Shown piece by piece: positions 2,429 through 20,371 of a stretch of DNA of 64,000 nucleotides (position 1 is the stretch's first letter; each line of letters begins with the position of its first letter). A model generated the notes under the pieces. It was not told where the DNA came from. It was given only the letters and a program-made list of their open reading frames with translations, and did no database searches. Source of the stretch: Phycisphaeraceae bacterium (GTDB taxonomy: Bacteria > Planctomycetota > Phycisphaerae > Phycisphaerales > UBA1924); contig JAHBXB010000005.1 in the NCBI GenBank assembly GCA_019636655.1, positions 124,001-188,000 of the forward strand. Reading direction: 5' to 3'. The position numbers and the translations under genes were made by a program.

Positions 2429-2959
2429 CTACTCGTACTTCAGCACCGAGTGCACCGGCCCGTACTTCGACATCCTCGCCGCACCCTTCAGGAACACCAG
2501 CTCGATCAGCACAGTGATCCCGACGATCTTCGCCTGCATCCTCGACACGAGGTCGCAGCACGCCTGCATCGTCCCGCCCGTGGCCAGCAGGTCGTCCACC
2601 ATCAATACCGACTGCCCCGGCTGCACCGCATCGACGTGGATCTCCAGCGAGTCACTCCCGTATTCCAGTTCGTACGACGTCCGCGCCGTCTTCGACGGCA
2701 GTTTCCCCGGCTTGCGCACGGGCACGAACCCCGCCGACAAGGCCTGCGCCAGCGCGATCCCGAAGATGAACCCGCGCGACTCCGCCCCGATCACCAGCTC
2801 CACGCCCCTGCCGCGGAACGGGTTTGCCATCAGTTCCACGGCGAGCGCCAGCCCTGCCGGATCGCGCAGCAGCGGCGTGAAGTCCTTGAACACGATCCCC
2901 GGCCTGGGGAAGTCCGGCACATCTCGGATCATCTGCTTGAGTTGCTGCACCTCGTTCAT
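2429..2959 (-). CDS. apt: Adenine phosphoribosyltransferase
   Basis: Purine salvage enzyme converting adenine and PRPP to AMP and pyrophosphate in the cytosol. The 176-residue product matches the usual Apt length. It has the N-terminal DVPDFPRPGIVFKDFTPLL segment, the GAESRGFIFG loop and the PRPP-binding motif VLMVDDLLATGGTM near residue 125. The ATG at 2959 is preferred over an in-frame start at 3013 because Apt begins about there and a TACGCT box lies 8 nt upstream. It is divergent from groES, with a short shared intergenic region. Confidence 0.95.
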   Translation of the reverse strand: MNEVQQLKQMIRDVPDFPRPGIVFKDFTPLLRDPAGLALAVELMANPFRGRGVELVIGAESRGFIFGIALAQALSAGFVPVRKPGKLPSKTARTSYELEYGSDSLEIHVDAVQPGQSVLMVDDLLATGGTMQACCDLVSRMQAKIVGITVLIELVFLKGAARMSKYGPVHSVLKYE

Positions 2960-2967
2960 AGGCGCAC

Positions 2968-2973
2968 AGCGTA
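2968..2973 (-). promoter_or_regulatory. -10-like box before apt (leaderless candidate)
   Basis: TACGCT on the minus strand, 8 nt before the apt ATG, with no Shine-Dalgarno sequence between. This fits the recurrent TANNNT-start spacing in this window. Confidence 0.45.
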
Positions 2974-3041
2974 CGTCCCCCGCGCCTCCCGCGTCCGGCC
3001 CCCGCCCCGGCAAGCCTTCACCCCGGGTGCGCCGCCTTCCC

Positions 3042-3047
3042 TACACT
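3042..3047 (+). promoter_or_regulatory. -10-like box before groES (leaderless candidate)
   Basis: TACACT 8 nt before the ATG at 3056. A weak TTCACC lies 18 nt further upstream. There is no Shine-Dalgarno sequence. Confidence 0.45.
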
Positions 3048-3055
3048 CCCGCTAT

Positions 3056-3385
3056 ATGCGTAAGGACCAACGCGCCCAGTCCGCCAAACTCGAGGTCGTC
3101 GAACCCATCGGCGACCGTGTGCTGATCCGCAAGGACGAGGACAAGAAGCAGACCAAGGCGGGGATACACCTCCCCGACAAGATCGAGATCCCCACGATCA
3201 CGGGTCGGGTCGTCGCGATCTCCGCGAAGGTCGGCCGCGATGAGAACTACCCCATCAAGCAGTACGACCGCGTCCTCTTCAACCCCAAGCACGCCATTCC
3301 CGTGGAGTTTGAGGGCGACAACCGTCTGTTCGTCATCCCCATCGAGGACATCGTGGCGGTGTTCCGGAAGTCAACGGCGGATTGA
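3056..3385 (+). CDS. groES: GroES-family co-chaperonin (orphan)
   Basis: Co-chaperonin that caps the GroEL cavity. The 109-residue product has the Cpn10 core: VEPIGDRVLIRKDEDKKQTKAG (near residue 13), a mobile-loop/IHLPDK region, a GRVVAIS strand, and the C-terminal VIPIEDIVAVF. The N-terminal charged extension and divergent loop differ from canonical GroES, and no groEL is adjacent. It may therefore be a secondary GroES-like protein. The start at ATG 3056 is supported by the TACACT box just upstream. Confidence 0.88.
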   Translation: MRKDQRAQSAKLEVVEPIGDRVLIRKDEDKKQTKAGIHLPDKIEIPTITGRVVAISAKVGRDENYPIKQYDRVLFNPKHAIPVEFEGDNRLFVIPIEDIVAVFRKSTAD

Positions 3386-3480
3386 CAGATCGCCCGCATC
3401 GGTTCGCAGCACGCAGCCGGCGCGGTATCCGCGGCAACCGAACTGCTCCACCGCTTGGCAGAACGCCTCAGCAGAAATGC

Positions 3481-3532
3481 CGGAAGCCCGACGCGCCGCG
3501 AGAATGCGAGTCTGTCGGCGCGGGGCTTCCGG
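3481..3532. terminator. Imperfect hairpin between convergent genes
   Basis: An inverted repeat with 16-bp arms (CGGAAGCCC, a 2-nt bulge, then CGCGCCG, pairing with 3516-3531) lies between groES and the convergent small gene. There is no long T run on either side (TTTCT on the minus side), so a terminator role is only likely. Confidence 0.5.
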
Positions 3533-3544
3533 GCACGACGCCCG

Positions 3545-3832
3545 TTAGAAGCAGTTCTTCCGCACGTGCGCTGTGACGATCTCCCTGGCCCGCTTTACGT
3601 TCTCCGTCTCCTGCCGCTTGACGTCCCGCCAGAAGGTCTGCAGGTCGGGGTCGGCCTCGGCGTTGGCGATGTACTGGTCGCAGCGCCACAGGAAATCCAG
3701 CCGATGGCTGAGGAAGTGAATCAGGTCGCGGTCGTGGTCTTCGCACCCCTTCGTCTCGCCGACATGCGTGTACTGCTGCTCCGCCGCGGGGTGGGCCGTC
3801 GGTGACTGCCGGGCTGTGGTGGGAGGTGCCAT
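3545..3832 (-). CDS. Small hypothetical protein, helical and charged
   Basis: A 95-residue protein of unknown function. After a low-complexity N-terminus, residues 25-90 look like an amphipathic helical bundle (DRDLIHFLSHRLDFLWRCDQY, then DVKRQETENVKRAREIV) with His/Glu/Asp at helix-compatible spacing. This is loosely reminiscent of ferritin-like or haem/metal-binding helical proteins, but no family is recognised. The start is supported by an AAAGGAG site (minus strand, about 3850-3856) at good spacing. No membrane segment is visible. Confidence 0.65.
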   Translation of the reverse strand: MAPPTTARQSPTAHPAAEQQYTHVGETKGCEDHDRDLIHFLSHRLDFLWRCDQYIANAEADPDLQTFWRDVKRQETENVKRAREIVTAHVRKNCF

Positions 3833-4055
3833 GGTGGGAGACTCCTTTCGAGTAGTCGTCTCGCCCGCACGCCGGGAGCGACCGGTTCCTTCCGGTCGTG
3901 CGCGCTACCCGAAACGCTAGCGGCGAGCGCCCGCCGCGGCGACGCCGTTTCCGCGGCTCCACGAGGCTTCTCCGCAACCTCCACCGAGTCCGTTCGCAGC
4001 GCGTTTGCCGAACTCGCACACCTGCAACCAGACCGCACGACCGCCCGCCATGAGG

Positions 4056-4061
4056 TACCCT
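4056..4061 (+). promoter_or_regulatory. -10-like box before aroA (supports the TTG start)
   Basis: TACCCT 7 nt before the TTG at 4069, with no Shine-Dalgarno sequence. The spacing matches the other leaderless candidates and supports the rare TTG start. Confidence 0.45.
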
Positions 4062-4068
4062 TCGCCGC

Positions 4069-5592
4069 TTGAACGCACCGACTCCCAGCTTTTTCGCTGT
4101 CGCTGATCTCCCGCTGGCGGAGTTCCCCAATGCGGTCCACGTTCCGCCGCTGGCCCAGCCGTTCGATGCCGCCATCACGCCGCCAGGGTCGAAGAGTCTG
4201 ACCAACAGGGCCCTTCTCCTGGCCGCGCTCGCCGACGGCACGTCGACACTCACCAATGCCCTTGTCGACGCGGACGACACACGAGTCATGATCACGGCCC
4301 TGCGCCAACTCGGCGCTGAAATCCGCGCCGAGGGCGCCACGCTCCACATCCGCGGCGTCGCCGGCCGCTGGCGGCCCGCGTCCGGCAGTGGGGGGGAGAC
4401 TCTCGATCTTGAGAACGCGGGCACCGCGGTCCGGTTCCTCACAGCCGCCGCCATCCTCGCCCTTCCCGGGTCGGGCCCGATCACCATCGATGGCAACGCC
4501 CGGATGCGAGAGCGCCCGATCGCTGGTCTGGTCGACCTGCTGCGCACGCTCGGCGCCGCCGTGGAGTACGCCGGCAACCCGGGCTTTCCGCCGGTCCGCG
4601 TGCATCCGGTGGCCGACCTGCAAAGCCTCCGGAGCACCTTGCTGATCAACTCGACTGCATCAAGCCAGTTCATTTCCGCCCTGCTGCTCATCGCCCCGTT
4701 TCTCCCCAACGGGCTCGCGGCCAGCCTCCTGCCGCCTGTGACCAGCGAGTCGTATGTCAACATGACGCTGCGCCTGCTGGAGTCGCTCGGTATTGTCATC
4801 AAGACCGCGGACATCGGTCCACCCGGCGGCCCGCGGCAGCGAGACATCCGCATCAACCCCGGCCGTCAGTCGGCGTCGTCCCGCAGCCTTTCAGCCTCCG
4901 GACTCGCAGCGTTCGAACTCGACATCGAGCCTGATGCAACAAGCGCCACGTATCTCTGGGCCGCCGCCGTGCTCGCAAACGGCTCGCGCACCACGACGCC
5001 CGGCCTGGGCCCGGCCAGCCTGCAGGCCGACGCCGCGGGTTTCCTCAACGCGCTTCGCGCCATGGGTGCGGCCGTCGAAACCGCCTGCGCGGACAGCAGC
5101 CGTATCCCACGCCCGGCCGGCATGTCCGTCCGATCCGCGGCCGCCCTGCGGCCCATCGATCTGGACTGCTCCAACATCCCCGACGCCGCAATGACCCTCG
5201 CTGTCCTCGCCTGCTTCGCCACGCCCTGGCCGGCAGACCCTGCTGCCACTTCCACGCTCCGGGGCCTGCGCACGCTCCGCGTCAAGGAATCCGACAGGCT
5301 CGCCGCGCTCCAGGCCGAACTCACCAAGCTCGGCGCCACGGTCGAGATCCTCACGACCAGGGACGACGAGGCCCTCCGCATCACCCCGCCGCCGCGCCTC
5401 CCCAGCCCAGCCGAGCCTCTCGTCTTCGAGACCTACGACGACCATCGCATGGCCATGTCCCTCGCCCTCATCGGCCTGCGCGTTCCCAACGTCGTCATCC
5501 GCAACCCGGCCTGCGTCGGCAAGACCTACCCGACATTCTGGCGGGACCTCGCGGGGGTATACACGCCTGCGGGTCCCACTCAAACCTTGTGA
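4069..5592 (+). CDS. aroA: 3-phosphoshikimate 1-carboxyvinyltransferase (EPSP synthase)
   Basis: Sixth step of the shikimate pathway, joining phosphoenolpyruvate and shikimate-3-phosphate to form EPSP. The 507-residue product has both half-domains: PGSKSLTNRALLLAAL near residue 40, LENAGTAVRFLTAA near 120, TSESYVNMTLRLLESLG near 226, LRVKESDRLAAL near 405 and YDDHRMAMSLALIG near 460. It is longer than the usual ~430 residues because of an N-terminal extension of ~30 and inserts near residues 265 and 345. The start is TTG at 4069; no ATG or GTG lies between the TACCCT box and the conserved core. Confidence 0.95.
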   Translation: MNAPTPSFFAVADLPLAEFPNAVHVPPLAQPFDAAITPPGSKSLTNRALLLAALADGTSTLTNALVDADDTRVMITALRQLGAEIRAEGATLHIRGVAGRWRPASGSGGETLDLENAGTAVRFLTAAAILALPGSGPITIDGNARMRERPIAGLVDLLRTLGAAVEYAGNPGFPPVRVHPVADLQSLRSTLLINSTASSQFISALLLIAPFLPNGLAASLLPPVTSESYVNMTLRLLESLGIVIKTADIGPPGGPRQRDIRINPGRQSASSRSLSASGLAAFELDIEPDATSATYLWAAAVLANGSRTTTPGLGPASLQADAAGFLNALRAMGAAVETACADSSRIPRPAGMSVRSAAALRPIDLDCSNIPDAAMTLAVLACFATPWPADPAATSTLRGLRTLRVKESDRLAALQAELTKLGATVEILTTRDDEALRITPPPRLPSPAEPLVFETYDDHRMAMSLALIGLRVPNVVIRNPACVGKTYPTFWRDLAGVYTPAGPTQTL

Positions 5593-5932
5593 GCGGGAAA
5601 GTAGGAGGCGCTGGAACAAGTGCCCCTCCTTCGAGCATCGCAGGGCACCGCACGCCCCCGGCCGCTCACGTCGCAGGCCCTCCCAGGCTCCATAACTCCG
5701 TCGCCCGGGCACATCTCGCTTCACACACGTAACATCCCTATTGCATCCCACGAACCGCCGCCGGTATCCTGACCTTGCGGCCCTCACCGCTCTGCCCGTG
5801 GGTGTGTTCCAACCCGCTCTCGCCCCGCGGCTGACCGGCGCTCGACGCCAGTCAGCCGGTTCCGCGCACGCCGGTTCTTCGCGCTCTTCCCCGCACGAAG
5901 GCATCGCACGGTCGCGGCTTTGGAACCGTCTC
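5593..5932 (+). other. Intergenic region upstream of the large secreted protein gene
   Basis: 340 bp without a convincing gene. It contains one good promoter candidate (5741-5770). The frame of the downstream gene is open from TTG 5741, but that codon lies inside the -35 element, so most of the open stretch is probably untranslated leader. Confidence 0.5.
5741..5770 (+). promoter_or_regulatory. Sigma70-like promoter for the secreted propeller/heme protein
   Basis: TTGCAT (5741-5746), 18 nt, TATCCT (5765-5770). Transcription would start near 5777, which excludes the TTG at 5741 as a translation start. Confidence 0.5.
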
Positions 5933-8488
5933 GTGGCCTACGACCCCTCTTTCGCGATCGGCCGCCTTGCTGCGATCCTCGCCGCGGCCCTCTCGCTCTC
6001 ACCCGCCCTCGCCGGCCCACGCCCCGACTGCCCAGGCGACTTCACCCGCGACGGCTCGGTTGACCCTGTCGATGTCTCCACCTTCATTCGTGCCTGGGTC
6101 GCCCTCGATCCCGCGGCGGACTTCAACTCCGACGGCCTCGTCACCGCCCCCGACGTATCGTCCTTCATCTCCGCGTGGCTCGGCTCACTCGCGACCACCG
6201 GGGGCCACTGCCCGCTCGCCAATCCCCCGGCCCCGATCGTCTTCGTCTCCCGGCGCATCCCGGCCTGCGGCTCTGATGCGTGGTCCACGCCCCGCGCCCT
6301 CCCCGGCGTCGGCCCCGCCACCAGGTTCATCCCCGCAGCGCCGGGGTCGCTGATGATCCTCGAACCCTCCGGCCAACTCCGCACCCTCATCAACGGCGCC
6401 AACCCCACATCTGCCTCCTTCAACCTCATCGACGTCAACGCCCCGGCGGTCTCCTACGACGCCCAGTGGATCGCCTTCGCCGGCCTCCCCGCGCCCCCAC
6501 CCGGCACCACCTACCCCTCCCTCCCCAACTCCAACCCCGGCGCCTGGCGTCTCTTCCTGATCCGCCCCAACGGCGCCGACCTCCGCCAACTCACCTTCTC
6601 CAGCCAGGACTCCCTCGATCTCTCCCAGTTCGGTTCCGCGGCCGCGGCCCTGCGCCCCTACGACGACACCGACCCCGTCTTCCTCCCCGATGGTCGCATC
6701 TGCTTCTCCTCGACCCGTTTCCCCTCGTTCTCGCACTACGCGGCGACGCGCACCACCAATCTCTACGTCATCAACACCAACGGCACGCGCCTCATCCGCC
6801 TCACCGCCGACCGCAACGCCGCGGACCGCCCCCTCGTCGACCCGATCTCCGGCCGCATCGTCTACTCCCGCTGGATCCGCAACCCCCGCTTCCCCGCCGC
6901 CTCCGCCGACACCACGATCCCCGTCGATCCCGATGATCCCGGCCAGGGCTTCCTCGAGTCCAACGGCCTCACCACCGACCCCGCCGCCGCCGTCGGCGGC
7001 CCCTCCATGAACCGCAACTTCTGGCAACTCATCAGCCTCAACACTGACGGCAGCGCCATCCGCCTCTGGTCCGGCCGCGGGCGCGACCAGCACCTCAACC
7101 ACGCCTATCCCGGCTCCTTCGCCCCCGACGGCACGCTCTTCGCGGCGTACTACCCCGACCTCTCCCTCACCCACACCGCCGGCTTCGGCGGCATCCGCCA
7201 CTGGTCCCCAGGCCCGCACCCCTGGCTTCCGGTCCTGGGCGTCACCGACACCTCCGCCCCGCCCCTCAATCCGATCGCGCCGCACATCCGCGCGGCCCCC
7301 CTCTACGCCACCGACCCCGAGTTCATCCCCGCGCCCGGCGGCAGCGGGGGGGGTGGGGGGGTGGTCCTCTCCGCCGCCCCCGACCTCCACCAGGATTACG
7401 GCCTTTACCTCTGCGCCCCCGACGGCTCCAACCTCCGCCTCCTCCTCGACCTCCCCAACACTTCAGAACTCCGCCCCCGCGTCATCCGCTCGCGCCCGCT
7501 CGCTCCGCTCATCCGCGATCAATACCGCGATTTCCCCACCGAGCCCGCCCCTCCCCTCCTCCCACCCGCCAACCCCGAGTCCTTCCTCGCCCCAGGCCAC
7601 ACTTTCATCTTCTACTCCTTCAACATCTACGCCAACGCCGACGTCGATACCGACATCATCTCCGCCCCCGCCGTCGGCTCCGCCGACTTCATCCGCTTCT
7701 TCGCCGATCCCCAGCGCACCAGCCCCGGCTTCGCCAGTCTCGATTGGCCCATCCACCTCGGCGATACCCCGATCCGCCCCGACGGCCTCCCCGCACTCCC
7801 CGGCGGCGGCGCCTCGCTCTCCTTCCCGCCCGCTCCGGGGAGTCTGCCGCTCTTTGAACAACTCCGCTCCAACTCAGGCATCGTCCCCCTCACCGGCGGC
7901 CCCACCCCCGAAGGCGCGGCCCACGGCGGGGCCGCCAACTTCGCCCCCCCGGGCACCTCCACCGTCTGCGTCGGCTGCCACACCGGCCACTCCATGATCC
8001 CCGTCCCCGCCGACGGCTCCGAGGCCGTCTGGACCAATCTCGCCCCCGGCGCCGCCGTCACCACCTCCTCCTCCCGCACCCCCACAGCCCACCTCGGCCT
8101 CATCGACCGCCGCGCCCTCAAGGCCGACCCCCAGTCCACCTGGACCTCCGCCCCCAACCAGCCGGACAACCAGTGGGCCCGGCTCACCTTCCCCGTCCCC
8201 ATCGCCGTCCGCCGCATCGTCCTCTACGACGTCAACCCCTCCGCCGCCTCCACGCTCCACACCGCCTCCGCCCGTATCCGCCTCTACGAGGACGCCGCCG
8301 CCACCCTCCTCCGCGCCGACACCACCGCCTCCAACCTCTCCCCCTCCGGCACACCCATCCCCTTCCCCGACCTCTCCCGCATCCGCGCTGTCCGCATCGA
8401 TCTCCTCTCCGTCTCCGGCTCCTTCCTCTCCGCCCCCGCGGCGGGTCTCGCCGAGATCGAAGTCATCGCCAAGGGCGAGGCTCCATAG
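5933..8488 (+). CDS. Secreted protein: dockerin-like repeats, beta-propeller, CxxCH heme site, discoidin-like C-terminus
   Basis: A predicted exported protein of 851 residues from GTG 5933. A signal peptide (LAAILAAALSLSPALA, cleavage near residue 27) is followed by two dockerin-like EF-hand repeats (GDFTRDGSVDPVDVSTFI, near 35; ADFNSDGLVTAPDVSSFI, near 60). Residues ~100-560 hold TolB/WD40-like propeller strands. A single c-type heme motif CVGCH is at 679-683, and residues ~700-850 resemble an F5/8 type C (discoidin) sandwich (WARLTFPVPIAVRRIVLYDV). The order recalls HZS-alpha-like planctomycete proteins. Alternative starts are GTG 5798/5804. Function is unknown; an extracytoplasmic redox or binding role is inferred. 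Confidence 0.75.
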   Translation: MAYDPSFAIGRLAAILAAALSLSPALAGPRPDCPGDFTRDGSVDPVDVSTFIRAWVALDPAADFNSDGLVTAPDVSSFISAWLGSLATTGGHCPLANPPAPIVFVSRRIPACGSDAWSTPRALPGVGPATRFIPAAPGSLMILEPSGQLRTLINGANPTSASFNLIDVNAPAVSYDAQWIAFAGLPAPPPGTTYPSLPNSNPGAWRLFLIRPNGADLRQLTFSSQDSLDLSQFGSAAAALRPYDDTDPVFLPDGRICFSSTRFPSFSHYAATRTTNLYVINTNGTRLIRLTADRNAADRPLVDPISGRIVYSRWIRNPRFPAASADTTIPVDPDDPGQGFLESNGLTTDPAAAVGGPSMNRNFWQLISLNTDGSAIRLWSGRGRDQHLNHAYPGSFAPDGTLFAAYYPDLSLTHTAGFGGIRHWSPGPHPWLPVLGVTDTSAPPLNPIAPHIRAAPLYATDPEFIPAPGGSGGGGGVVLSAAPDLHQDYGLYLCAPDGSNLRLLLDLPNTSELRPRVIRSRPLAPLIRDQYRDFPTEPAPPLLPPANPESFLAPGHTFIFYSFNIYANADVDTDIISAPAVGSADFIRFFADPQRTSPGFASLDWPIHLGDTPIRPDGLPALPGGGASLSFPPAPGSLPLFEQLRSNSGIVPLTGGPTPEGAAHGGAANFAPPGTSTVCVGCHTGHSMIPVPADGSEAVWTNLAPGAAVTTSSSRTPTAHLGLIDRRALKADPQSTWTSAPNQPDNQWARLTFPVPIAVRRIVLYDVNPSAASTLHTASARIRLYEDAAATLLRADTTASNLSPSGTPIPFPDLSRIRAVRIDLLSVSGSFLSAPAAGLAEIEVIAKGEAP

Positions 8489-8641
8489 CCCCCTCCCCCC
8501 CGCGCGCCCGCCGCGGCTGACCAACCCACCACCCCCGACTACCCTCCCCCGTACGCCCCAGCCCTCAGCCATCCCGAGGGATGCCCGGGCCTCCCCATCC
8601 CCGCGGCGTCCCCCGCACCCCCCCAAGGACCCCACCGCCCC

Positions 8642-9133
8642 ATGCCCTCACTCGACATCGTCAGCCGAATCAACTTCGCCGAGCTCGACAACGCCATCAA
8701 CAACACCCTCAAGGCCGTCGCCACCCGCTTTGACTTCCGCAACTCCCCCGTCGAGATCACTGTCGACCGCAAGGAGAAGAAGCTCAAGATGGTCGCCGCC
8801 GACGACGGCAAGATGAAGGGCCTCCACGAGATGTTCACCTCGGCCGTCATCAAGCGCGGCCTGCACCTCAAGTCCTTCGAGTTCGGCGAGATGGAGCAGG
8901 GGGCCGCCGGCCACACCAAGCGCGAGGTCAAGCTCAAGGAGGGCCTCACCCCCGAGCTCGCCAAGCAGATCGCCAAGATGGTCAAGGAGACCAAGATCAA
9001 GGTCCAGGCGAGCATCCAGGGCGACGAGGTCCGCCTCACCGGCAAGAACATCGACGACCTCCGCACCATCATGGCCATGCTCGACAAGGCCGGCCTCGAG
9101 CAGCCCCTCCAATACATCAACATGAAAAGCTAG
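8642..9133 (+). CDS. YajQ family nucleotide-binding protein
   Basis: A 163-residue cytosolic protein of the YajQ/UPF0234 family. Members bind nucleotides, and some bind cyclic di-GMP and act as effectors with transcription factors. Diagnostic segments are [20 protein letters not shown] at the N-terminus, [11 protein letters not shown] near 32, [20 protein letters not shown] near 98 and [21 protein letters not shown] near 122. Length and start match the family. A possible AAGGA lies about 13 nt upstream. It stands alone between C-rich spacers, and the sequence does not show a specific partner. Confidence 0.92.
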
Positions 9134-9273
9134 CCCCCCCCTCCCCCCTCCCCCCTCCCCCAGCCCTTCGGGGCCTTCAGGCCGCTCATCCCCGGCCCCC
9201 GATCTCCCCTCCCCTCGATATCATCCGTCCCATTCCCACACGCCTCAGCCCCTCTCGCCCCCCGGAGCCCCTC
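9134..9273. other. Pyrimidine-rich spacer between yajQ and icd
   Basis: 140 bp that begins with a run of CCCCCCT-type units (9134-9165), almost pure pyrimidine on the plus strand. No gene or clear hairpin is seen. It presumably carries the icd promoter, which could not be identified with confidence. Confidence 0.4.
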
Positions 9274-10755
<1,482 letters not shown>

Positions 10756-10770
10756 GAGTGGATTTCTTCC

Positions 10771-12351
10771 GTGCCTGTACCGCCAAAGGACACTGTAAGC
10801 GCCAACTCCCTTGACTGGGCCAGGGCACACGTCTCTCGATACGGTGACACGGATGTGTTTCCGGTTCCCTTTGAGTTCGAGTGTTTGTGGGCTGATTGGT
10901 CTGCGGTCCAGACTGCGCTAATCAACCAAGACCTTGGGACGGTAGCCCCTCGGGCGACTCGCACGATGCTTGTGCCGAAGTCGCAGGGGGGGTTTCGGGT
11001 CGCCACGCAACTCGACCCCCTCGATGCACTTCTCTACGCGGCGATGGGGTATGAAGCGGCCGCAAAGATCGAAGACTCGCGAGTTCCGGCTGACAAGAGG
11101 GTCGCGTGTTCGTTTCGACTCAGCCCTCAATCGACGGGCGACCTCTTCGTCGCGAACGCTGACGGCTGGAAGGATTTCCAGGAACACTCTGGTCAACTGG
11201 CCAAACACCGCTCGTGTGATTTCGTTGCCCTGGCGGATATCAGCGACTTCTACAACCAGATTTACCACCATCGACTGAACAACTCACTGGCGGCAGCAAT
11301 GGTGCCTGCCCCTCGGCCCGACAGTGTGGAGGCATTCATCGGTCGATTCACGGCGCAGCAGTCGCGCGGGATTCCCGTCGGCCCGTCAACATCGATCTTG
11401 CTCGCCGAAGCATGCCTCAGCGATGTCGATCACCGACTAATTCATTGCGGGTTCAATCACACCCGCTATGTAGACGACTTCCGGATTTTCTGCAAAAGCG
11501 AGGCGGAGGCGGTCCATGCACTGCACGAGATTACCCATTACCTCTTCACGGCACACCGCCTCTCCCTCCAGGCACATAAGACACGCATCGTCCTTGCAAA
11601 GGACTTCATCCGACAAGAGTTGGTCGAACCGGAGGAGCGTGAGAACGCCGCAAAGATCTCACAAGGAAAGAGGCTCATTGAGCGAGCGATGGATGCGGCT
11701 GCCTACGCAGGCTTGGAGGTTGACGAGGACGAGATTCTCGAGGCAAAGGAGCAAGAAATCGTTCGGAAGGCACTTCTATCGACGTTCAAATCGTGCGTGC
11801 GAAAGCCGCCGATCCATCTCGGCCTTGGCCGGTACGTGCTAAGAAGGGCCAGTTCGCTCCGCATCAGGGCGCTTCTGCGGCCCGTTGTCGAGCATCTTCC
11901 GATATTGACGCCAGTCTTCCGCGAAGTCATCCACTACTTCGATAGAATCTGGAATGATGAGGTCCGTGATGTCTTGTCGTCAGCGCTCCCAGATTTCTTG
12001 TCGAAAGACTCTCAAGGTTGGCTCCCATTTGTCCGTGACTGGACGCTTTGGCTCGCCGCAAAGCGACAATTCCTTCCGTCGAAGACCGCGATCCAGTTGG
12101 CAGATGACTCGAAGCCTACTTTGGTCGGATGCCGATACCGAGCTCTCTTGGCCGGTTGCTATGGCGAGGTTGACTGGGTCCGAGATCAGAAAGAACGGTG
12201 GATGAACGCCGGACCCTGGGAGCGCCGCGCGATTCTCTGGGCCGGTTCAGCGCTGCCCCGGGACGAGCGCCGAGCGTGGTTGGAACCGGTTACGCGGAGT
12301 CTCGATCTCACTGATGCCGCTATTGCGAAGAGGGTACGGGCACTTTCGTAG
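10771..12351 (+). CDS. Group-unassigned (UG/Abi-like) reverse transcriptase, probable defence gene
   Basis: A 526-residue RNA-directed DNA polymerase. The palm motifs are intact: motif A ADISDFYNQIYHHRL (Asp156, residues 155-169), motif B RGIPVGPSTSILLAEA (199-214) and motif C RYVDDFRIF (catalytic Asp235-Asp236). The N-terminal GDTDVFPVPFEFECL segment and the long helical C-terminus (after ~275) are like the stand-alone bacterial defence RTs rather than retrons or group II intron RTs: no maturase or HNH domain and no retron X/Y signatures. It starts at GTG 10771, 15 bp after icd, with no clear ribosome site. Base composition is distinctly lower in GC than icd, suggesting transfer. The exact class is not assignable from sequence alone. 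Confidence 0.85.
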   Translation: MPVPPKDTVSANSLDWARAHVSRYGDTDVFPVPFEFECLWADWSAVQTALINQDLGTVAPRATRTMLVPKSQGGFRVATQLDPLDALLYAAMGYEAAAKIEDSRVPADKRVACSFRLSPQSTGDLFVANADGWKDFQEHSGQLAKHRSCDFVALADISDFYNQIYHHRLNNSLAAAMVPAPRPDSVEAFIGRFTAQQSRGIPVGPSTSILLAEACLSDVDHRLIHCGFNHTRYVDDFRIFCKSEAEAVHALHEITHYLFTAHRLSLQAHKTRIVLAKDFIRQELVEPEERENAAKISQGKRLIERAMDAAAYAGLEVDEDEILEAKEQEIVRKALLSTFKSCVRKPPIHLGLGRYVLRRASSLRIRALLRPVVEHLPILTPVFREVIHYFDRIWNDEVRDVLSSALPDFLSKDSQGWLPFVRDWTLWLAAKRQFLPSKTAIQLADDSKPTLVGCRYRALLAGCYGEVDWVRDQKERWMNAGPWERRAILWAGSALPRDERRAWLEPVTRSLDLTDAAIAKRVRALS

Positions 12352-12360
12352 ATGCTCGGG

Positions 12361-12433
12361 TGTCGGCGGGATGGCACCGGCGTCCCGTGCCACTTACCGT
12401 CCAAGCAGCACCGAGCGACGCAACCCGCCGACG
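12361..12433. ncRNA. Nested stem-loop between the RT and nuclease genes (structured RNA or terminator)
   Basis: GTCGGCGGG (12362-12370) pairs perfectly with CCCGCCGAC (12424-12432). Inside it, TGGCAC (12372-12377) pairs with GTGCCA (12387-12392). It lies 10 nt after the RT stop, between convergent genes. It could be a terminator without a T run, or a template-like RNA for the RT. The sequence cannot decide between these. Confidence 0.35.
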
Positions 12434-12507
12434 AGGTTTATGGGGGGCGGTCGATCCGGTGGTACGAGCAGTTCCGGCGGGGCAGGCAGGTGGCACCCAT
12501 TGAGGGT

Positions 12508-13458
12508 TCAGACTAGCGGCTTCTTGTCGACGATCGCTGCTCGGACCTTCGCACGAATGAGGTCTTTGAGGCATCCATCGCGTTCGAGCAGTAGAACAAT
12601 TTCGGAGAGGTGCCCCAATAGGAATACGCTCTTGGCGAGCGACTCGCGACACGTCGTGATCGCAGGCTCTGTGAAACCGGATTGTGAAATTAGAAGCCCT
12701 CGCGCTGCGCTCCTATTGAACACGCGTACGAGATGATGTGAGACCTCGCCCACTCCAAGCGGTTGCGCTCGCCATTTCATTTCCACGAGGTAGACGTGGC
12801 CGTCCAGTTCGACTACGCCGTCGATCTGTTCGATCACTCCCTCGCCGTCGTCGCCCACGCGCCTGAAGGCATCGCGGATCAGGATCCCATGCGACTTGAA
12901 CAAGCGATTGAGCACGCCCTCAAGCGCCGTTCCGCGCCAGCTAGCGTTGCTCTCAAGGAAAAGCGCATTGAGGTTGGCCCGGATCTCCTCTCGCTCTACC
13001 TTCACGCGGTGGCGCTCCGCGATCGCGGCCTCTCGCCTCCGGCGGAGGTCCTGTTCGGCCTTTTCTCGCTCCTGATTCATGCGAGTGAATGAGTCTTTGA
13101 TGTTCACCAGCTTGGCGATCTCAGCGACATAGCCCTTTGCCTCCATGCGATCGTTGTCGTAGCAAGTGGAAAAGTTGTCCCATTGGGTCACTCGCTTCAG
13201 TACCTCACGGCGCTGCGCCAATGCAGCATCGCCGCGTTCATTTAGCCGCGTCAAGACACGTCGAACAATCTCGAACTTTGTGATACTGTCCCTATCCCGC
13301 TGAACCTGATTGCTCAACTCGAGGAGTTCGCTGGCAGTGACGCCGCAGCCCGTAAAGAAGGTCAGGACATCACGCTTTCCCTTGATGAGCCGAGGGACCG
13401 CGTTAATGAGGAGCGCCATCAGCTCCGGCGGGTAGTGGTGGACAAGCGATTCGTTCAC
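12508..13458 (-). CDS. Mrr-type restriction endonuclease-like protein
   Basis: A putative DNA endonuclease of 316 residues. Residues ~175-270 form a PD-(D/E)XK core of the Mrr_cat type: Glu180 (GTALEGVLNRLF), Asp213 (EQIDGVVEL), Glu226-x-Lys228 (YLVEMKW), then the Mrr-like GLLISQSGFTEPA near 254. Residues 10-125 are an all-helical domain (PELMALLINAVPRLIKGKRD; NIKDSFTRMNQE) that I recall from other restriction-endonuclease annotations. A charged coiled coil spans ~125-165. It starts at GTG 13458. Lower GC than housekeeping neighbours, and convergent with the RT, so a defence role is likely. No cognate methylase is adjacent. Confidence 0.78.
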   Translation of the reverse strand: MNESLVHHYPPELMALLINAVPRLIKGKRDVLTFFTGCGVTASELLELSNQVQRDRDSITKFEIVRRVLTRLNERGDAALAQRREVLKRVTQWDNFSTCYDNDRMEAKGYVAEIAKLVNIKDSFTRMNQEREKAEQDLRRRREAAIAERHRVKVEREEIRANLNALFLESNASWRGTALEGVLNRLFKSHGILIRDAFRRVGDDGEGVIEQIDGVVELDGHVYLVEMKWRAQPLGVGEVSHHLVRVFNRSAARGLLISQSGFTEPAITTCRESLAKSVFLLGHLSEIVLLLERDGCLKDLIRAKVRAAIVDKKPLV

Positions 13459-13554
13459 GCTTCATTGACCCCTGATGACCCGTCCGAAGTCGCCATATGG
13501 CCTCCATGCTGAGAGAACGATAGGGGGTCGTCCGTCAGCACGTGGCACGGACAT

Positions 13555-13644
13555 CGTGCCACCGACTCAACCGGCTCTGCGGTGTAGTCGGTGCGTCTTC
13601 CCTTCGGCACCGACTGACTCCAAAGCGAGTAAGTCGGTGGCACG
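13555..13644 (+). repeat. REP cloverleaf palindrome, copy 1 (complete)
   Basis: 90 bp in the same orientation as the other copies. The outer arms are GTGCCACCGACTCA (13556-13569) and a right arm ending GTCGGTGGCAC (mismatch near the inner end). Internally there is AGTCGGTGC/GCACCGACT. In this copy the internal hairpin is preceded by GTAG, the tetranucleotide often found beside REP hairpins. Confidence 0.85.
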
Positions 13645-13661
13645 CCCCCTCCCCCTCCGCC

Positions 13662-14102
13662 TCACGGCCGCGTCGCGATGAAGATGATCCAGATGACCAA
13701 GGCCACCAGACCCAGCGCGCACCCCGCAATGAGGAGCCCGAGCCTGGTTTCGGCGACGCCGAAGTCGGTCCGGTAGGGGTCGAAGCCCAGGGCCGAGTCG
13801 CCGGATCGCGCGGCCGCGGGACGCTTCAGCCGGATGCGCTGCGAGTCGAACTTCTCGAGCAGCACCCACCCCGCCTTGGCCTCTTCTTCCAGCGCCCGGC
13901 GGAGCACCTCCGGCTTGCGGAACGCGCCGGTGGCCGAGCGAAGGATCTTGAACTCCCACCCCCCCGCCCCCCCGGTCCCCCCCGTCCCCGCCTCGCCCAG
14001 GTCGGCGTCGCTGTACCCGGTCATGCGTTCTTCCTCCTGCTGCTCGGCCCTGCGCCGGGCCGCCGCGGCCCCCGCCGCCGCCGCCGATGCTCCTGCGCTC
14101 AT
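13662..14102 (-). CDS. Small membrane protein with DUF4177-like domain
   Basis: A 146-residue protein. An Ala/Arg/Glu-rich start and a Gly-rich linker lead to a compact segment (WEFKILRSATGAFRKPEV, then EEEAKAGWVLLEKF, residues ~48-90) that looks like the DUF4177 fold, a short alpha-beta unit ending in GW. A single C-terminal transmembrane helix follows (LLIAGCALGLVALVIWIIFIA, ~120-140). The start is supported by AGGGGAG about 8 nt upstream. It ends 18 bp from a REP copy. Function is unknown; membrane anchoring by the tail is inferred. Confidence 0.65.
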   Translation of the reverse strand: MSAGASAAAAGAAAARRRAEQQEEERMTGYSDADLGEAGTGGTGGAGGWEFKILRSATGAFRKPEVLRRALEEEAKAGWVLLEKFDSQRIRLKRPAAARSGDSALGFDPYRTDFGVAETRLGLLIAGCALGLVALVIWIIFIATRP

Positions 14103-18570: not shown

Positions 18571-18632
18571 CGCTGCCGCGGGAGGCGGGGGAGGGGGGAT
18601 TGGACCAAGGCCGCGAACCGATCACCAAGGTC

Positions 18633-18723
18633 GTGCCACCGACTCAACCGGCTCTGCGGTTTAGTCGGTGCTCCTGCCCTTCATCCCCACCGACTGACTC
18701 CATGGCGACTGACTCGGTGGCAC
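18633..18723 (+). repeat. REP cloverleaf palindrome, copy 2 (complete), upstream of the RAYT
   Basis: 91 bp with outer arms GTGCCACCGACTCA and TGACTCGGTGGCAC (one mismatch) and an internal AGTCGGTG/CACCGACT hairpin. It ends 31 bp before the transposase start and is in the same orientation. Confidence 0.85.
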
Positions 18724-18754
18724 TCCCTACCCGTCCCTATTAATCTGCCCCCCG

Positions 18755-19342
18755 GTGGACCCGTCTCAACCAACTCGAAAGAGGATGAAGCGGTTCGAAC
18801 TCCCCGGCGGCGTCCGCTTCATCACGTTCTCCTGTCAGCGACGGCTCCCGCTGCTCTCCAATCCGTCCATCCGCCGCATCATGGTCGATTCGATCGCTCA
18901 GGCACGAACCTCGCACGGCTTCGAACTCTTCGCATGGGTGCTCATGCCCGAGCATGTTCATTTGCTCATCCGGCCGCACCAAGACACCCCGCTGGACCGC
19001 CCACTCAAGTCGATCAAACTCGCCGTCGCCAAAGCGGCGATCCGCCGTTGGCGTGATCTGGGAGCCAACAGGTTGCTCACCAATATCGACGACGGCCGCG
19101 GCACCCCTCGCTTCTGGCAGAAAGGCGGCGGCTTTGACCGCAACGTCCGCGACGCCGCCGAGTTCTGCAGGGAAGTCCGCTACATCCATCGCAATCCTGT
19201 GGAGCGTGGCCTCGTGACGGCGCCTGAACTCTGGACTTGGTCGAGCGTCCACTGGTGGATGGGCCATCGCGGCGACGAACTCCCATGCGATCCGCCGCCC
19301 GGCCGCCCCGACTCCTGGGCCCGCTGGATGGGCTTCAGATGA
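18755..19342 (+). CDS. REP-associated tyrosine transposase (RAYT, Y1 family)
   Basis: A 195-residue single-strand DNA transposase-like protein of the IS200/Y1 superfamily. The HUH motif is WVLMPEHVHLLI (His67, His69). Other family segments are FITFSCQRR near 22, PRFWQKGGGFDRNV near 119 and EVRYIHRNPVERGLV near 140. It is framed by REP palindromes: copy 2 ends 31 bp upstream and copy 3 begins 4 bp after the stop. That is the classical RAYT arrangement. At the position where I expect the nucleophilic Tyr (GGGYDRN in relatives) there is Phe127; Tyr143 is the nearest alternative. The start is GTG 18755, or ATG 18785. Confidence 0.9.
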   Translation: MDPSQPTRKRMKRFELPGGVRFITFSCQRRLPLLSNPSIRRIMVDSIAQARTSHGFELFAWVLMPEHVHLLIRPHQDTPLDRPLKSIKLAVAKAAIRRWRDLGANRLLTNIDDGRGTPRFWQKGGGFDRNVRDAAEFCREVRYIHRNPVERGLVTAPELWTWSSVHWWMGHRGDELPCDPPPGRPDSWARWMGFR

Positions 19343-19345
19343 GCC

Positions 19346-19384
19346 GTGCCACCGACTCAATCGGCTCTGCGGTTTAGTCGGTGC
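19346..19384 (+). repeat. REP palindrome, copy 3 (left half only), downstream of the RAYT
   Basis: 39 bp matching the left part of the other copies (GTGCCACCGACTCAATCGG... to AGTCGGTGC). The right half is missing or eroded. It starts 4 nt after the RAYT stop, and its TTAG supplies the stop codon of the gene on the opposite strand. Confidence 0.8.
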
Positions 19385-20078
19385 ATCCTGTGTTCGGCAA
19401 CGCACGGTCAGTTGGTGCCACCGGCCGCGGCATCCACGCGCGTTCGAACGCGCGGCGCCAATCGTCGCCAAGCAAGCCTGTCTCGAAGTGGTGCGCTGCG
19501 CCGGTCGAGAGCATGCAATAATGCTCCCATATTTGCTGCATCGCCCAGAGGAGACGCTGGTGATAGCGAATGTGGGGTCGTCCCGAGTCGCGTCGGCTCC
19601 TGTGCGCGACCCGGCTGTTGATATGGTTTCGCAGCGGTTCCGCCCGCTCGTTAAGCCATTCCAGGTGGCGCAATGCCCTAACAGGCGGATAAATCTGGGC
19701 TGTGCAGTCCGCAGCAAGACGGGAGAAGTCCTCATCGCCCAACGCCTCCCATTCGGCAGCATGCTCCGGGTAGGCTGCGACGTATCTCTGGACATAATCT
19801 GAACGTCGAAAGATGACGTCCCGCCTCGCGACGCGAGAGATTAGCGATGCCAAGCAAATGCTGCGAGAATCGCGATCGACTTGGCGTCGGAGACCCATTC
19901 CGAAGGCGATGAAGTGTGATCGCGTGATGAACTCCATCGCCTCTCCGGGCTCTCCAGCGTGCGGATTGACAAGAAGGTTGCTGTTGAGTCCGCACCACAG
20001 CTCGTGATCGGATTGCAGCTGGATCAGATCGTTGAGAACGATATCCAGTTCCACAGCGAAGGAGTTAATCTTATTCAT
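19374..20078 (-). CDS. Hypothetical helical protein ending inside a REP element
   Basis: A 234-residue soluble protein, lower in GC than housekeeping neighbours. It is mostly helical and contains LNERAEPLRNHINSRVAHRSRRD near residue 150. That stretch is faintly like the R-N-x-x-x-A-H segments of HEPN/AbiU2-type proteins, but not enough to assign a family. The start is supported by AAGGAAG about 7-13 nt upstream. The last codons (CTD-stop) are made of REP copy 3 sequence, so the original C-terminus may have been altered by REP insertion. Confidence 0.55.
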   Translation of the reverse strand: MNKINSFAVELDIVLNDLIQLQSDHELWCGLNSNLLVNPHAGEPGEAMEFITRSHFIAFGMGLRRQVDRDSRSICLASLISRVARRDVIFRRSDYVQRYVAAYPEHAAEWEALGDEDFSRLAADCTAQIYPPVRALRHLEWLNERAEPLRNHINSRVAHRSRRDSGRPHIRYHQRLLWAMQQIWEHYCMLSTGAAHHFETGLLGDDWRRAFERAWMPRPVAPTDRALPNTGCTD

Positions 20079-20145
20079 CGGAGTCCCTTCCTTTAGTTCA
20101 CCACACTAGAGTAGGTGGGTATGACCCGGCAGGTAGCACTGACGC

Positions 20146-20236
20146 CGTGCCACCGACTCAACCGGCTCTGCGGTTTAGTCGGTGCGTCCTGCCCTCCGGC
20201 ACCGACTAACTCCAAAGCGAGTGAGTCGGTGGCACG
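20146..20236 (+). repeat. REP cloverleaf palindrome, copy 4 (complete, best preserved)
   Basis: 91 bp. The outer stem GTGCCACCGACTCA (20147-20160) pairs perfectly with TGAGTCGGTGGCAC (20222-20235). Three inner hairpins are ACCG/CGGT (20161-20174), AGTCGGTGC/GCACCGACT (20177-20207) and CTC/GAG (20210-20221). Together they form a cloverleaf. Confidence 0.88.
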
Positions 20237-20371
20237 CCTACCCGTCACGGATAGTCTGCCAGACGCATCCTCCTGGTGGCACCAAGCTTCCCCCAGCCGT
20301 GCCACGTCCCCCTGTTCGTCTGCCCAGCGGCACCCCCCAAGGCACCGCGCCTCTCCCCGCCGGAGGGAGTC

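Follow-up and report, generated by a model that had tools for sequence, protein, structure and literature searches.

Behind the isocitrate dehydrogenase gene (icd) of a Phycisphaeraceae bacterium, a gene for a reverse transcriptase (RT) and a gene for a nuclease face each other, and the question arises whether the two form a defence system of their own or are residents of the same island. In a first-pass annotation of the window, that is, of the whole stretch of 64,000 nt that was analysed, the pair was taken for a defence locus whose RT class and whose RT-nuclease pairing may not have been described, with a shared defence hotspot as the alternative. The features concerned are as follows (window positions).

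9274-10755, plus strand: icd (isocitrate dehydrogenase), the native left boundary.
10756-13660: segment of foreign composition from icd to the next native gene; other genes are found there in a relative (G670).
10771-12351, plus strand: putative RT gene of the UG7/Drt8 family, 526 aa, intact open reading frame with a GTG start; RT domain approximately residues 1-285, helical C-terminal domain approximately residues 287-524, as predicted from profile, alignment and structure model.
12508-13458, minus strand: putative Mrr_cat PD-(D/E)XK nuclease gene, 316 aa, intact open reading frame, assigned by profiles, alignments and model.
13538-13647: REP-like palindromic element just past the start of the nuclease gene, with further copies elsewhere in the genome.
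13662-14102, minus strand: 146-aa gene, the right boundary; a homologue, 62% identical over 119 aa, lies beyond the matching place in G670.

The GTG start of the RT gene is located 15 nt past the icd stop codon; the RT and nuclease genes are convergent with their 3′ ends 156 nt apart and thus, as already stated in the first-pass annotation, not an operon. Both were also said to be lower in GC than icd, and this holds, with GC and GC3 of 0.582 and 0.658 for the RT gene, 0.578 and 0.697 for the nuclease gene, and 0.657 and 0.962 for icd. They are the lowest-GC pair among 40 mechanically picked ORFs (a 234-aa ORF at 19374-20078, GC 0.587, was listed apart from this set).

The insertion site behind icd

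A match to icd was found in 41 genomes and the region behind it was fetched for 11 of them. The closest relative fetched, G670, has icd DNA 88% identical to that of the window; homology between the two ends at the icd stop codon and restarts at window position 13661, and the interval in G670 is filled by approximately 2.2 kb of other DNA (64-69% GC) encoding an amidohydrolase, with only a 40%-identical match in the window's genome, and a DUF1801 protein. Within the stretches fetched behind icd, the 146-aa gene on the right-hand side has a counterpart only in G670 among the 11 relatives. A second relative, G672, carries another low-GC gene directly behind icd (L126, positions 7245-8198), which has a match to nucleoside deoxyribosyltransferases barely over the Pfam cut-off. 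Because G670 and G672 carry other genes there, the site behind icd is variable across relatives. An insert of foreign composition is supported; at its ends, no convincing direct repeats were found.

The distribution of both genes is patchy. Drt8 matches of at least 300 bits occur in 3 of 298 genomes of the class and in 4 of 392 genomes of the phylum, the window's genome (G000) being counted in both; matches to the nuclease occur in 9 of the 298 class genomes, all but that of the window at 68 bits or less, and none in G218 and G234, the two other genomes of the class that match Drt8 strongly. In phage genomes the RT matched one of 50,697 records, weakly, and the nuclease had no match. Composition and patchy distribution together suggest that RT and nuclease arrived by transfer.

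Two further observations concern the surroundings. REP-like palindromic repeats are present in the window at 13538-13647, 18631-18727, 19345-19402 and 20129-20238; CCGTGCCAC occurs eight times against 1.5 expected, and the repeat has a hairpin z of -4.45 and eight matches across the genome. Amid these repeats lies a Y1_Tnp gene (18755-19342) which resembles a REP-associated tyrosine transposase. Elsewhere, the window's genome has a different, second RT-like ORF (L022, G000:C1:641399-641827) in a 573-aa open frame, with 33% identity over approximately 130 residues.

Family and phylogeny of the reverse transcriptase

The RT had been described as a 526-residue protein with intact motifs, which was confirmed; the ORF at 10771-12351 is uninterrupted and D156, D159, G200, P202, G204, D235 and D236 are invariant in UG7 alignments of 11 and 12 rows. 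The PADLOC profile Drt8 (PDLC03783) matches the RT with 461 bits over residues 10-522, which is nearly its full length, the runner-up being UG21 with 156 bits. Drt8 is a name which we take, in keeping with the order of the PADLOC accessions, to stand for UG7, and DRT8 was reportedly named by Mestre et al. in 2022. An undescribed RT class, as had been considered for this protein, was rejected on that match; judged by profile and alignment, the RT is a new example of the already named family UG7/Drt8. It is 23-35% identical to most of the UG7 members aligned and 42-43% to the closest complete ones.

Phylogenetic analysis places the RT with Drt8-matching RTs and apart from other UG RTs, in trees holding four and one non-UG7 rows, respectively. 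Its subclade consists of L133-L136 and L079, with a support of 99/99 in the second tree and, with L001 added, of 91/100 in the first. A grouping of the RT with the clade whose members have a PD-(D/E)XK partner (see below) was rejected (p-AU 2e-49; this grouping was chosen for testing with the first tree already known). Both trees were built without L006, in which the RT is in two pieces, and without the near-duplicates L139 and L142, the second one also without L001, L073b, L080 and L081. Scanned singly, 13 other RTs had Drt8 as their best profile, L064 had UG21 and L080 had UG20; L064, L080 and L081 (the latter with 132 Drt8 bits) fall apart from the UG7 RTs in the first tree.

Of two tree methods applied to UG7, one assigned it to a lineage related to Abi and the other left its placement unclear, according to the part of the study consulted (PMC4244168). 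As one refutation of its reading, the first-pass annotation had named RT homologues falling in a fully characterised DRT class, which applies in part; the class is named and is reported to confer phage resistance, but its mechanism is stated to be unresolved in the sections consulted of two papers (PMC13213688, PMC13314766).

Fold of the reverse transcriptase

A structure model of the RT made from a 12-row alignment (pLDDT 87, pTM 0.84) is helical from residue 287 onward, in agreement with the long helical C-terminus noticed earlier. The top Foldseek hits are DRT4, UG15 and DRT6 (E 8e-12 to 2e-11). By VIA, 443 residues of DRT6 are aligned with model residues 11-519 (Z 19.8, rmsd 4.4), and DRT4 (Z 16.5), AbiK (Z 16.4) and AbiA (Z 16.5) also match along most of the length. 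DRT4 (UG15) and DRT6 are Class 1 DRTs; they share the overall fold of the RT, but belong to different UG groups and are only 14-15% identical to it. As far as the available text of a recent study goes, Class 1 DRTs typically combine the RT with a helical, HEAT-like domain in one protein (PMC13174585), and the model predicts just this architecture, with a helical HEAT-like C-terminal domain behind the RT domain.

It has to be considered whether the protein is instead the RT of a mobile element, that is, of a group II intron, a diversity-generating retroelement (DGR) or a retron. Group II RTs do reach the top VIA score (Z up to 20.6, tied with the 19.8 of DRT6); however, these matches cover only residues 4-346, those to DGR RTs mostly the RT domain, and it is DRT4, UG15 and DRT6 that Foldseek puts first. 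Further, the RT scores 56 bits at the NCBIfam equivalog level for group II intron RTs, where the cut-off is 300, against 461 bits for Drt8, and no match to Rfam at gathering scores was found in the window. A mobile-element RT is therefore a very improbable reading.

Class 1 members studied are described, in the portions consulted of two papers, as synthesising DNA without a nucleic-acid template, some of them primed from a tyrosine (PMC13174585, PMC9508834). No N-terminal tyrosine comparable to the priming residue of AbiK (Y44) is conserved in the UG7 alignment; one tyrosine outside the RT motifs, Y312, is well conserved (18 of 20 rows). As to a noncoding RNA beside the RT, its flanks fold no better than shuffled sequences (z 0.23, 1.06 and 1.11), and no sigma-70-like promoter site was found next to the RT.

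The nuclease and its relatives

The assignment of the second gene product to the PD-(D/E)XK nucleases with E180, D213, E226 and K228 as catalytic residues proved sound, these four being invariant in two 8-row alignments. It scores 27.2 bits with Pfam Mrr_cat (cut-off 21) and 28.7 bits with PADLOC mREase_IV; by these profiles and alignments it is an Mrr-type PD-(D/E)XK nuclease with intact catalytic residues. The model (pLDDT 87, pTM 0.55) has a helical N-terminus, a long coiled-coil-like helix at residues 101-168 and the nuclease domain at approximately residues 172-310.

The four closest homologues are encoded on plasmids of Azotobacter, Klebsiella and Citrobacter and on a viral contig (L172); they are 44-47% identical over the whole nuclease (coverage at least 98%), and in all four cases ABC-3C genes follow directly downstream. 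ABC-3C is assigned to the Lamassu superfamily in the part consulted of PMC10586767. The nuclease is what the window has in common with such loci, but the three other components are missing; tblastn with the ABC-3C protein, the middle component and the ATPase gave no match within the window, and a search of the window's genome with the ABC-3C protein, run without a positive control, gave none either. More distant homologues adjoin AbiEii-type and Qat genes or AbiEii-type and Hachiman genes, so the nuclease family is one that occurs with ABC-3C, AbiE/Qat and AbiE/Hachiman genes; another one, in L084, has no annotated partner adjoining it. In L176 (positions 2695-9530) a homologue is located between type I specificity-like and HsdR-like genes, and a weak RT match follows 4.9 kb on.

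The nuclease might, taken by itself and compatibly with the preferred reading of the RT, be an independent type IV-like enzyme which cuts modified invading DNA and has nothing to do with ABC-3C. The mREase_IV and Mrr_cat matches and the solitary homologue in L084 are consistent with this, as are the fold matches, in which MspJI leads and AspBHI is also found; MspJI acts on modified DNA, and so does AspBHI according to its entry title. However, none of the fold matches is strong (the best has E 5e-4 and TM 0.28), the N-terminus consists of helices rather than of a known modification-reading domain, and each of the four close homologues stands directly upstream of ABC-3C genes. We regard this reading as possible, though rather doubtful.

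Reverse transcriptases of the family and nuclease partners

Relatives on viral contigs were found with alignment queries, single-sequence scans having found none; the scan with the UG7 alignment gave 39 loci, including ten strong ones (L133-L142). At L137-L142 and in G234 (L063), a gene of approximately 250 aa comes after the RT gene and overlaps it. Those of L137 and L141, scanned singly, match the PADLOC profile RTasPDDEXK (PDLC03797) with 225-231 bits, and a profile made from the partner genes themselves matches at exactly these seven of 27 loci, the window being negative. Five sampled RTs with this partner form one clade (100/100), and the L138 pair of RT and RTasPDDEXK has close copies in 105 of 5,426 complete E. 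coli genomes. The idea that a pairing of RT and PD-(D/E)XK nuclease is new in such RTs was therefore rejected; in kind, it is known from one UG7 clade. Like the window, these two-gene DRT8 loci combine an RT of this family with a PD-(D/E)XK nuclease, but their genes overlap and their RTs belong to the partnered clade, whereas the window has convergent genes and an RT of another clade. Nor is the nuclease of the window a member of RTasPDDEXK, a candidate assignment that was rejected; it gave no match to PDLC03797 at E up to 1, and profile-profile comparison detected no similarity (probability 0.1%, both profiles being shallow).

A recurrent nuclease neighbour of RT homologues, which the first-pass annotation had asked about, was not found in either search direction. 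The profile of the window's nuclease (which misses L061, one of 24 nuclease loci) matched at none of the 26 other RT loci, a number that includes near-duplicates (L137-L139, L141/L142) and short contigs, L001 ending 71 nt past its RT. Twenty-three of the 26 were counted as UG7: 13 by Drt8 as best profile in single scans, L077-L079 by the Drt8 genome search alone (301-509 bits), and seven (L004, L006 and L138-L142) by tblastn match or place in the tree; L064, L080 and L081 belong to the 27 loci and were excluded from this count. Conversely, no UG7-like RT was found at 22 of the 23 other nuclease loci, eight of which have only approximately 1.5 kb of flank; the exception is the weak RT match of L176 (42 bits, 4.9 kb off).

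Neighbours of UG7 RTs were surveyed at 20 loci with 101 ORFs, of which 95 were scanned (the five neighbours in the window and L137:9231-9539 were left out). RTasPDDEXK was found in four, among the first 25 of 107 and of 509 families listed; NERD, Gabija proteins, a CBASS-type cyclase, SAVED and type I specificity appear once each among the families listed. Near the five members of the RT's own subclade, neither Mrr_cat nor NERD was found in the 23 of 26 neighbour ORFs that were scanned singly; neighbours there include an HsdR-like gene, a helicase with a PLD-type nuclease domain and a terminase. PD-(D/E)XK-type neighbours occur at three of the 20 loci, the window included, which is too few for a rule, though it lends some weight to the exchange of partners considered below.

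Several loci are worth describing individually. A UG7 RT is directly followed by GapS4a and GapS4b genes, each over its NCBIfam cut-off, in L135 (2406-6013); another, 42% identical to the RT of the window, stands directly behind type I HsdR- and HsdS-like genes in L134 (1539-7572). In L078 (7995-10300; G442), the gene that comes after the RT gene and overlaps it encodes NERD and topoisomerase zinc-ribbon domains, and the two may be another pair of RT and nuclease; apart from RTasPDDEXK, it is the only recognised gene of nuclease type found immediately after a UG7 RT in this survey. The UG7 RT of L077 (7216-12079; G365) has an extra N-terminal stretch which recurs at the start of two adjoining genes, one of them with an iSTAND match, and which looks like a recruitment domain. 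Finally, the UG7 RT of L079 (4074-5831; G477) carries, as an N-terminal fusion, a helix-turn-helix domain (HTH_3).

These data bear on a reading of the pair as one system, in which the usual PD-(D/E)XK partner of a UG7 RT would have been swapped for an unrelated, convergent Mrr-type nuclease. There is precedent in the overlapping PD-(D/E)XK gene of the partnered clade and in the NERD-domain gene of G442, and both genes of the window share composition and insert; effectors of the family also seem exchangeable, because a Cap17 effector with SLOG and PNP domains is given for DRT8 in the part consulted of PMC10952713. Against a swap speak the convergent arrangement, the mutual absence at 26 RT loci and at 22 of 23 nuclease loci, the lack of detectable similarity between the shallow profiles of nuclease and RTasPDDEXK, and the subclade neighbours scanned for Mrr_cat and NERD, and it appears improbable. 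To be judged just as unlikely is its general form, in which UG7 RTs would be a platform with interchangeable PD-(D/E)XK effectors (RTasPDDEXK, NERD, an Mrr nuclease borrowed from ABC-3C/Lamassu) and the window a newly assembled convergent case. The neighbours of UG7 RTs elsewhere, which include Gabija, CBASS-type cyclase, SAVED, type I restriction-modification and GapS4 genes, argue for shared islands; of the two readings offered in the first-pass annotation, the shared hotspot is the better supported one.

Proposed function and implications

The locus as a whole is probably best read as a stand-alone UG7 Class 1 RT beside a separate Mrr-type nuclease, both co-resident behind icd; the pair resembles two residents of one defence island more than a novel system of two components. 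What remains of the defence locus first proposed is an RT of defence type and a nuclease of restriction type; the novelty does not, as both the class and the kind of pairing are known.

The RT would accordingly be a stand-alone, defence-associated Class 1 enzyme from a UG7 subclade that lacks the PD-(D/E)XK partner known in the family. If DRT4, DRT6 and AbiK are taken as a guide, it probably oligomerises by means of its helical domain and, when phages infect the cell, probably makes untemplated, protein-attached DNA; this product may, by the same analogy, block phage growth or stop the cell. The nuclease would be a separate effector, either the orphan of an ABC-3C/Lamassu-type system or a stand-alone type IV-like enzyme, and the two genes would be found together because both arrived in the variable site behind icd.

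For the family, the survey sets one UG7 clade, with its nuclease partner, apart from the UG7 RTs that lack this partner. With the mechanism of DRT8 stated to be unresolved in the papers cited above, so far as consulted (PMC13213688, PMC13314766), an RT without that partner, such as the one described here, could reveal what the enzyme does on its own.
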